NCBI GenBank assembly: GCA_946645735.1
Contig: CAMPCK010000071.1
Coordinates: 1 to 5,705, forward strand
Source of the DNA: an uncultured Clostridia bacterium
GTDB taxonomy: Bacteria; Bacillota_A; Clostridia; Peptostreptococcales; Anaerovoracaceae
Length of the DNA stretch: 5,705 nucleotides
Direction of reading: 5' to 3'
Shown here: positions 1 to 1,381 of the stretch, one piece after another
Position numbering within the stretch: the first letter of the stretch is position 1
How the letters are laid out: the number at the start of each line of letters is the position of its first letter
Program-made: the position numbers and the translations under genes
The notes under the pieces: model-generated
The model's input: only the letters and a program-made list of their open reading frames with translations
Told to the model about the DNA's origin: nothing
Database searches by the model: none

Positions 1-36
1 AAGAGACCGCACCGCTTTATAAATAACTTGACATAA
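1..36 (+). other. Possible 3' end of an upstream plus-strand gene (frame undecided)
   Basis: A strong plus-strand terminator follows at 42-68, so a transcript must enter from the left edge. All three plus frames meet a TAA stop here, at 20-22, 24-26 and 34-36. The reading frame and product therefore cannot be decided from this window. The TTGACA at 28-33 has no matching -10 element and is probably chance. Confidence 0.3.
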
Positions 37-41
37 GTATT

Positions 42-68
42 AAAGGCTGCCTTTGGGCAGCCTTTTTT
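42..68 (+). terminator. Intrinsic terminator of the gene left of the window
   Basis: The stem is GGCTGCC (45-51) with GGCAGCC (56-62) around a TTTG loop, extended by A-T pairs at its base. Six T's follow at 63-68. The T run is on the plus strand, so it ends a transcript entering from the left. It faces the minus-strand terminator at 471-494, which marks the DNA between as a convergent intergenic region. Confidence 0.85.
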
Positions 69-87
69 ATTTGTACCGAGGTGGCTA

Positions 88-126
88 TGCGGACAAAAAA
101 TCTGTTTTTTACTGAAATTGTCCGTA
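88..126. repeat. Palindromic 39-bp unit 1
   Basis: The left end is TGCGGACA (88-95) and the right end TGTCCGTA (119-126), an inverted repeat with one mismatch. The core contains A6-TCTG-T6, which could extend a hairpin. Its last 12 bases are identical to the last 12 bases of the reverse complement of unit 3, so those two are related in opposite orientation. The left flank GTGGCTA resembles the flank of unit 4 (GAGGCTG). Confidence 0.75.
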
Positions 127-137
127 CACAATCCCCC

Positions 138-176
138 TGCGGACAGATTTCAATATTCTGCAAAAAACTGTCCGCA
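138..176. repeat. Palindromic 39-bp unit 2
   Basis: This unit has perfect 9-bp inverted ends, TGCGGACAG (138-146) and CTGTCCGCA (168-176), around a 21-bp AT-rich core. It matches unit 4 at 36 of 39 positions in the same orientation. It starts exactly 50 bp after unit 1, with an 11-bp spacer between them. Confidence 0.8.
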
Positions 177-305
177 TGAACCACTTCTTCCACTATAAAG
201 AATTGTCGAAAAATGTCTGTTTGTGTCAGATTAATATGTTCAGGCGCCGGTTCTTTGAAGATTCTGTTGTTTTCACAGTAAATAATCCTGATATGATGCA
301 TGTGC

Positions 306-344
306 TACGGACAATTTGGAGGATTTTCTTTAAAAGTGTCCGCA
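306..344. repeat. Palindromic 39-bp unit 3
   Basis: The left end is TACGGACA (306-313) and the right end TGTCCGCA (337-344), with one mismatch. Its reverse complement shares the first 8 and last 12 bases with unit 1, while the 19-bp centre differs. It therefore looks like a unit-1-type element in inverted orientation. It starts 218 bp after unit 1. Confidence 0.75.
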
Positions 345-355
345 CTCGGAGGCTG

Positions 356-394
356 TGCGGACAGATTTCAATATTTTGCAAAAAAATGTCCGCG
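356..394. repeat. Palindromic 39-bp unit 4
   Basis: The left end is TGCGGACA (356-363) and the right end TGTCCGCG (387-394). It is a near copy of unit 2, differing at three positions including the last base. It starts 50 bp after unit 3 and 218 bp after unit 2, so the layout of the first pair is repeated exactly. Confidence 0.8.
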
Positions 395-470
395 AATCAC
401 AGCACAAATCGCTAAGAATGCAAAAAACCATCCCCACGTCACTAGTGAAGTGAACCCCTTTCGCTTATAC

Positions 471-494
471 AAAAACGGCAGCCTCAGGCTGCCG
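471..494 (-). terminator. Intrinsic terminator of the E2-like gene
   Basis: An 8-bp perfect stem CGGCAGCC (476-483) / GGCTGCCG (487-494) has a 3-nt loop. The A5 at 471-475 reads as U5 on the minus strand. The hairpin begins 14 nt after the TAA stop of the minus-strand gene. Its stem uses the same GGCAGCC/GGCTGCC sequence as the plus-strand terminator at 42-68. Confidence 0.85.
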
Positions 495-508
495 CATATT
501 GTCTCCTG

Positions 509-1381
509 TTATTTGCAGATCCACTTGATGGGTTTCTTTACATCGGGGTCCCAGTTGATCTTTTCGGGGGGCTGCTCCAGAATCTCGGGGTTCTTCAGAT
601 ATTTGTCGAATTCTCTGAAGCACCGGCCCATATAATGGCCGTTGGCGATACGCTCATCCGTCACTACGCCCAGCTCCATGATCTTTTTTTCATAAGGGTT
701 CCCGTCGGAATCCAGGTAGGTCTTCTTCACGGGTTTTCCCATGGAGATGAACACTCCCGTGGTGCCGAATTCATAGAGATGGTGGTTTACGGTATCCGTC
801 CTGATGGATGCCAGGTTCGTCACAAAGAGGGACGTGTGGAAGGGGCTGATGTCCACCATGGTGAAGGGCATGGTGAAGTACTTGTCGAGAAGCTTAAGAC
901 CCCCTACTGCCACCCTCATTAAGAAAGGCACTGCAAGAAGCTTCGGCATGAAGTTATCCATGGCGTTGTTCTCATCCAGCACCTGGACCTTCTCAATGGC
1001 CTCCTCGATTTTGCGGTTAACGGTGAAAATGTCATCGTCAAGATTGAAATATACCTTGGTCACCGTATCCGTATCCTGATCCGGCTTAAGGGTAACAAAA
1101 GATACGCAGAAATGATTTCTTGCGTAGATTTTTTTGTTCATGGCAAAGCGGTTTACCAGGGGGTTCTGTGATGTGAGCCTCAGATAGGCTGCGATCAGGA
1201 TGGCCATATGGCTCATCTTGATCCCCTTTGCTCTGCACTTTCTTATATAATCCTGCATCTTTTCCAGGTCTGCGTCTACTTTGATGCTGTTTGATGCGTC
1301 GAATCTTTTTGGCATGATATAGGGGACGATCTCATACATGGCGTCCTTGGTCCTTACCCTGTATCCATCAGTTCTGTACAT
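509..1381 (-). CDS. Stand-alone 2-oxo acid dehydrogenase E2 / CAT-fold acyltransferase-like protein
   Basis: This 290-residue protein resembles the catalytic core of the E2 acyltransferases (the chloramphenicol acetyltransferase fold). It shows the core N-terminus (IVPYIMPKRFDAS, residues 18-30), the SPFHTSLFVTNLASI strand (179-193), and the C-terminal block VTDERIANGHYMGRCFREFD (240-259) followed by LKNPEIL. No lipoyl or subunit-binding domain is present, and no E1 or E3 gene lies nearby, so it is not an ordinary dehydrogenase-complex subunit. In the usual DHRxxDG catalytic motif, His is replaced by Glu243 and Asp by Asn247. Classical acyl transfer is therefore doubtful, though the substitution may be typical of this clostridial subgroup. 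The start is supported by AAGGAG at 1388-1393, six bases upstream. It forms its own transcription unit, with a promoter at 1443-1471 and a terminator at 471-494. The fold assignment is fairly sure; the function is unknown. Confidence 0.85.
   Translation of the reverse strand: MYRTDGYRVRTKDAMYEIVPYIMPKRFDASNSIKVDADLEKMQDYIRKCRAKGIKMSHMAILIAAYLRLTSQNPLVNRFAMNKKIYARNHFCVSFVTLKPDQDTDTVTKVYFNLDDDIFTVNRKIEEAIEKVQVLDENNAMDNFMPKLLAVPFLMRVAVGGLKLLDKYFTMPFTMVDISPFHTSLFVTNLASIRTDTVNHHLYEFGTTGVFISMGKPVKKTYLDSDGNPYEKKIMELGVVTDERIANGHYMGRCFREFDKYLKNPEILEQPPEKINWDPDVKKPIKWICK

Follow-up and report, generated by a model that had tools for sequence, protein, structure and literature searches.

Phased arrays of inverted half-sites in genomes of certain gut bacteria and their link to a predicted PD-(D/E)XK-like nuclease family

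Four spaced palindromes found in a contig of an uncultured Clostridia bacterium belong to a class of helically phased arrays built from inverted half-sites of about 7 bp. Arrays of this kind cover the upstream region and the first codons of genes for PD-(D/E)XK-like nucleases and are also found in unrelated, mostly intergenic places. We regard it as nearly certain that array and nuclease belong together. For the palindromes analyzed here, we lean towards the reading that they are a scattered (solo) copy of such a nuclease-partnered array, where the nuclease would bind the arrays, control its own gene and spread or maintain the copies. This reading was derived from sequence comparison.

Array units in the window

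The analyzed stretch of DNA (the window) has a length of 5,705 nt. A first-pass annotation had described four exact 39-bp spaced palindromes between two converging terminators. All four were recovered as exact fits to its pattern, located within positions 88-394 (Table 1), and no fit occurred in 200 of 200 dinucleotide shuffles. The search resulted in seven rows for the four units, since three of them also match on the opposite strand. The inner six bases of the 8-base ends form perfect inverted repeats in 4 of 4 units, and the symmetry is broken by one outer base pair in units 1, 3 and 4. The distance of 31 bp given earlier for the ends is correct for the starts of the 8-base ends. Within positions 1-510, eight exact CGGACA/TGTCCG half-sites were found, every one inside the four units, and three more are present in the rest of the window.

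Table 1. Positions of the array units and of the neighboring features in the window.
Feature	Position	Strand	Description
Array unit 1	88..126	.	TGCGGACA-N23-TGTCCGTA
Array unit 2	138..176	.	TGCGGACA-N23-TGTCCGCA; start +50 bp from unit 1
Array unit 3	306..344	.	TACGGACA-N23-TGTCCGCA; start +168 bp from unit 2
Array unit 4	356..394	.	TGCGGACA-N23-TGTCCGCG; start +50 bp from unit 3
Direct repeat (70 bp), copy 1	106..175	+	probable array duplication
Direct repeat, copy 2	324..393	+	77% identity to 106..175; 218 bp downstream
Terminator-like site	42..65	+	gene entering at left
Terminator-like site	475..495	-	gene at right
Flanking gene	509..1381	-	weak 2-oxoacid_dh (acyltransferase catalytic domain) match

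Given that both unit pairs have the same start-to-start distance and that the 70-bp stretch at 106-175 recurs at 324-393, a two-unit array seems to be present here twice in tandem. Terminator-like matches were found six times in positions 1-560 (shuffle mean 0.7), including the two of Table 1. Both of these sites do flank the units; the converging orientation on the left rests on the terminator, since the window holds only the end of that gene.

The genes between 509 and 5522 are, in this order, acyltransferase-like, an aminotransferase of class I/II, a zinc dehydrogenase and a sodium-solute symporter (Pfam names). The aminotransferase is probably glycine C-acetyltransferase-like and the zinc dehydrogenase probably threonine dehydrogenase-like, and the region looks like a cluster for threonine/glycine use.

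Distribution of the CGGACA family

Related genomes were found through the flanking gene. Its relatives, 68-85% identical in amino acids, come from four assemblies with the labels Clostridiales or Bacillota; goat abomasum is the source of one, and the others carry RUG names, which belong to a rumen series. At the four related loci, no CGGACA half-site was found downstream of the flanking gene (128 to about 550 bp examined), and the strict pattern had no unit in the seven genomes of the genus nearest to the window.

Among 349 genomes of the family to which the relatives of the window belong, the strict pattern was identified in seven; the window itself is placed in this family through its flanking gene. 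Six of them (G296-G301) are consecutive in the list, and the seventh (G270), with a single GC-rich match, looks like chance. The relaxed pattern CGGACA-N23/24-TGTCCG resulted in 8, 11, 8, 9, 13 and 16 units in G296-G301, with 0 or 1 for the reversed-pattern control, and in no unit in five other genomes searched; among the matches listed, some single GC-rich units may be due to chance. Thus, the units are not restricted to a single locus, the outcome that had been named as speaking against a repeat family. The suggestion of a dispersed family holds: it is multi-copy and mostly intergenic, and its units have a constant length and conserved ends, whereas their cores are free.

In viral contigs, densely packed TGCGGACA/TGTCCGCA half-sites were observed at L014 11463, L019 3579 and L028 228, with spacings other than 23 bp.

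Anatomy and conservation of the arrays

The half-sites are about 7 bp long. Two of them in inverted orientation form a pair around a 23-bp spacer, and each array contains several such pairs. Pairings of a forward with a following reverse half-site within 80 bp were counted at 17 loci, of which L041 and L044 overlap, and in the window. For 37 of the 42 pairings the distance was 29 bp, for three it was 30 bp and for two it had another value. Whole spacing templates recur at different loci; in the commonest one the sites are located at 0, 29, 100, 121, 145 and 174 bp, with fixed orientation.

In four orthologous array pairs, 160 of 162 half-site bases were identical compared to 481 of 585 bases of the intervening DNA, and no indel was found inside the arrays. 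The sites were defined as exact in one member per pair, and two of the four pairs represent one orthologous group. Because the array flanks are 66-89% identical, only the half-sites and the absence of indels stand out. This agrees with the earlier proposal that selection acts on the ends and their spacing, with the intervening DNA left to drift.

For three words (37, 20 and 9 thinned units), pairing between symmetric core positions did not exceed that of shuffled partners; the observed value was reached in 35, 271 and 59 of 300 shuffles for the three words. The spacing of the units follows a period of 10.3 bp for 65 unit-to-unit distances and of 10.25 bp for the 25 distances left after removal of within-word repeats, and a period as strong was found in none of 2,000 jittered sets. 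The helical period is taken as support rather than as a clean test, since the distances are not independent. The unpaired cores, the constant spacing and the helical phase all speak for a protein on double-stranded DNA, and it is very likely that the arrays act as protein sites in this form. Of the three candidates put forward in the first-pass annotation, the multi-site protein-binding array is the best. The arrays do not resemble CRISPR or other tandem guide arrays: the repeats are inverted half-sites, and the intervening DNA drifts by substitution between orthologues.

Nuclease genes linked to the arrays

The nuclease family was detected in 227 of the 349 genomes (best seven matches scored per genome), is multi-copy and has no Pfam entry. 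One relative of the nuclease (P0047) carries the source label Anaerovoracaceae. The predicted protein shows the alpha-beta core with PD...E residues of the PD-(D/E)XK fold, and the residues E164, D194 and E208 are invariant in 47 of 47 rows, two of which are the same gene. Gene-linked and solo arrays share one common spacing template.

For the analysis of the gene surroundings, 90 nuclease loci were used (the 30 best and 60 taken by hand from the list), with the gene start extrapolated from the profile; some counts refer to 89 loci, as L103 has no upstream DNA. These loci were searched, without a preset word, for inverted 6-mer pairs 27-33 bp apart that occur two or more times, which gave hits on the 5' side of 40 of the 90 genes and on the 3' side of three, and none in shuffles. 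MITEs and classical transposons have inverted repeats at both ends and a target-site duplication; since 3' arrays are mostly missing at the nuclease genes, this does not look like an ordinary two-ended transposon. The predominance of the 5' side differs from Tn7-like elements, in which TnsA is accompanied by TnsB and TnsC, and from other multi-site transposon ends.

Three further loci were noted. At L127, CTCATAC arrays with equal spacing (about 962-1066 and 2193-2298) flank a nuclease gene on both sides, unlike the usual 5'-only layout. In the genus nearest to the window, seven TGTGTC units with an offset of 30 are located 5' of a nuclease gene (L190, G001:C23). Upstream of another nuclease gene, whose match has one internal TAA, five GTGTCA units were found in a row (L118/L157, G002:C52).

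A half-site pair inside the nuclease coding sequence

A scan of 38,540 cells, in which loci were not chosen by motif, revealed one standout at nt 32 with an offset of 31, where an exact 6-bp pair is present in 32 of 89 genes compared to a mean of 0.06. With 7-bp arms at nt 32-38/62-68, numbered 0-based from where the profile begins, 39 of the 89 genes pair at 6 or more of the 7 bases and 21 of these at all 7, and each of 40 control offsets gave at most one gene. The 39 genes use 25 different words. At least two more copies of the gene's own word were found within 470 bp upstream in 25 of the 39 genes and downstream in one.

Pairing was above 500 of 500 shuffles at each position of nt 32-37, for all 89 genes and for a thinned set of 69, with several base-pair types per position; inward from nt 38 and outside nt 32 it was within the shuffle range. 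The inverted site is thus written by codons 11-13 and 21-23, with letters that vary by subfamily. The half-site word tracks both protein domains of the nuclease, so that either domain may be the one that reads it. Two paralogues were resolved in each of four genomes, and their words differ in 4 of 4 cases. Overall, the coding site and/or a repeated upstream pair was found in 53 of the 90 loci and neither in 36-37.

Outside this family, 20 nuclease loci from the same class were compared, and none of them has the coding-embedded site. Repeated pairs were present upstream of nine of these 20 and downstream of five, a difference of less than 2-fold, and some are plain tandem repeats. The set started from 30 loci; L231, L234 and L242 (same family) and L255-L260 (partial) were left out, and of the remaining 21, L254 (G228) was dropped as belonging to the same family. 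Tandem repeats with inverted pairs were observed upstream of the nuclease genes at L244, L249 and L252, with periods of 75, 83 and about 61 bp, respectively.

The nuclease gene, its coding-embedded site and the subfamily-specific words had been missed in the first-pass annotation because they are located outside the window.

Scattered arrays predicted from nuclease words

Arrays elsewhere were predicted from the words that the nuclease genes contain; sites at these genes are included in the following counts. The pattern GTGWCA-N23-TGWCAC was found 13 times in G002, which belongs to the genus nearest to the window, and 16, 9, 18 and 15 times in G044-G047, with no match for the controls. In two genomes whose nuclease genes use other words, 2 and 4 units were found, with one control match. 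For TTGGCA, 10 and 13 units were identified in G298 and G301, both of which have a TTGGCA nuclease, 1 in G299, 4 in G300 (control 1) and none in G296, G297, G001 and G002. The prediction for TTGTAC largely failed and resulted in three units, two of which are sites in nuclease genes and one solo.

According to the CGGACA and TTGGCA counts, both array types coexist in no fewer than two genomes (G298 and G301). Among the nuclease genes read, no cognate nuclease was found for the CGGACA arrays of G296 and G298 or for the TTGGCA arrays of G300, and these assemblies may be incomplete.

Possible copying and tandem duplication of arrays

With the half-sites masked, arrays at apparently unrelated loci are still alike in sequence, nearly all of it within the array. 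Such matches were found, for example, within one genome (L093 and L095) and between two genomes (L052 and L055), and the match of L055 and L058 extends about 26 bp beyond the array. An intergenic array of G047 is missing at the same place in three relatives. No target-site duplication was readable at this site, where the junctions are too diverged, and both gain and loss are possible. A tandem array duplication was also found, with two copies in G044 and G046 and one in G047. In addition, about 1.8 kb of G047 (L144 484-2321) can be aligned in G046 and is missing from the G045 stretch adjoining an orthologous array.

Proposed function and alternative explanations

The nuclease itself is probably the array binder. 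A nuclease dimer would bind the inverted pair on double-stranded DNA and read the half-site in a subfamily-specific manner. A complex of several dimers, all bound to the same face of the helix, could repress the nuclease gene, so that the gene-proximal array would serve as its operator. As a more tentative suggestion, the spread of the arrays may be driven by the nuclease: nicks or breaks at or near arrays could lead to array copying to new places and to tandem duplication. Solo arrays would then be non-autonomous passengers depending on the nuclease, comparable to REPINs on RAYTs. In this scenario, the units of the window would go back to a CGGACA-type array that was copied to a convergent intergenic spot and then duplicated once. 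More generally, we consider it fairly likely that an un-named PD-(D/E)XK-like family with subfamily-specific 7-bp words and its own site at a fixed codon position maintains phased chromosomal arrays, its specificity diversifying between co-resident paralogues.

The overlap of the arrays with the upstream region and first codons of the nuclease genes, the half-sites kept between species and the position of some arrays upstream of genes would also fit a system of operators only, in which a regulon is under repression by the nuclease or a regulator and the scattered arrays serve other genes as immobile operators. This is unlikely. In a raw count of 50 array rows, which is based on crude ORF calls with repeated orthologues, four spurious-looking small ORFs and one probably mis-assigned locus (L145), 16 were between converging ORFs and 4 between diverging ORFs (two of these at nuclease genes), with 19 co-directional, 7 at contig edges and 4 inside the small ORFs. 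Furthermore, the catalytic-looking residues are retained in every nuclease row, and apparently unrelated array loci are alike beyond their half-sites.

A role in defence or self-marking, where the nuclease attacks invading DNA and the arrays restrain it or mark self DNA, is distinctly unlikely. The nuclease domain matches the C-terminal part of the PADLOC candidate PDC-S68 (6e-28), and several paralogues per genome, with differing words in the four genomes with two resolved, are in line with such a role; however, PDC-S68 itself is only a candidate. Phage and plasmid records contain the family only rarely, an observation that does not decide for or against a defence function. Apart from the common nuclease domain, PDC-S68 differs in size, its models having 1202-1273 positions compared to about 270 residues in this family.

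Selection at the RNA level, with the units forming a chain of hairpins (terminators, sRNA or mRNA elements), was also among the earlier candidates; it is very improbable, since the better folding of six tested 39-nt units than of their own shuffles (z -3.5 to -4.7) is explained by the ends alone, and, despite T runs after some units, the cores pair like shuffled ones in three word families, pairing ends at about 7 bp with a constant 23-nt gap across 25 words, the spacing is helically phased and no Rfam family was found at gathering score in window positions 1-520. Helically phased, mostly intergenic arrays could also be bound by some other protein that organises chromosomes or acts in recombination, the link to the nuclease gene being due to hitch-hiking alone. 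Very little room is left for this by the constant codon position of the site, seen with 25 words in 39 of 89 nuclease genes, and by the arrays predicted elsewhere from nuclease-gene words.

Comparison with known systems

By analogy, the mode of working proposed for nuclease and arrays would be most similar to that of REPIN-RAYT systems. REP elements are short, dispersed, intergenic inverted-repeat elements with more than one family per genome, and the arrays are likewise dispersed, multi-copy and mostly intergenic, with more than one word in some genomes. An enzyme gene with the element beside it is shared in part. The repeat anatomy differs: the arrays have half-sites of about 7 bp at a distance of 23 bp with free, unpaired cores, whereas REP elements are near-perfect hairpins with a conserved body. 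The copy number is about ten units per word and genome here, compared to over 100 for REP. The RAYT partner suggested in the first-pass annotation was not found beside the arrays; the linked enzyme is predicted to be PD-(D/E)XK-like, whereas RAYTs are HuH/Y1 enzymes. The helical phasing and the one site inside the enzyme gene are further differences. A GTAG or CGTC tag beside the palindrome is a feature of REP elements, as the title of one report indicates (PMC3733652).

The arrays share with BirA-type operators two inverted half-sites located far apart. In the latter, two distant inverted half-sites are read by a dimer, as single operators at a few promoters, whereas the present arrays are multi-unit, often between converging genes, and have words that differ between paralogues. 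Homing endonucleases such as the PD-(D/E)XK enzyme I-Bth0305I cleave a target that is destroyed by their own insertion; the point of comparison here is the spacing template that gene-linked arrays share with solo arrays. Matches of the nuclease to Bax1/DUF790 endonucleases are weak, and Bax1 is longer than this nuclease and works with the XPB helicase.

No description of such a nuclease-array system was found in the literature searched. We place the nuclease-plus-repeat system as new in kind, because we are not aware of any other enzyme whose gene contains, at one constant codon position, a recognition site that varies between family members and recurs as the same word in phased arrays elsewhere. 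A milder placing would follow if the REPIN analogy proves right.

The analysis connects intergenic repeats of a type not noticed before with a large family of nucleases that has no entry in Pfam. For the coding-embedded site, 39 genes supply 25 natural words, which makes it a data set on how a protein changes its DNA specificity while its own gene has to go on spelling the new site. If the nuclease does not spread the arrays, they would represent a multi-paralogue regulatory or defence circuit for which no description was found in the literature searched. If the nuclease does spread the arrays, the REPIN-RAYT way of life would have a second solution that is unrelated to the first.
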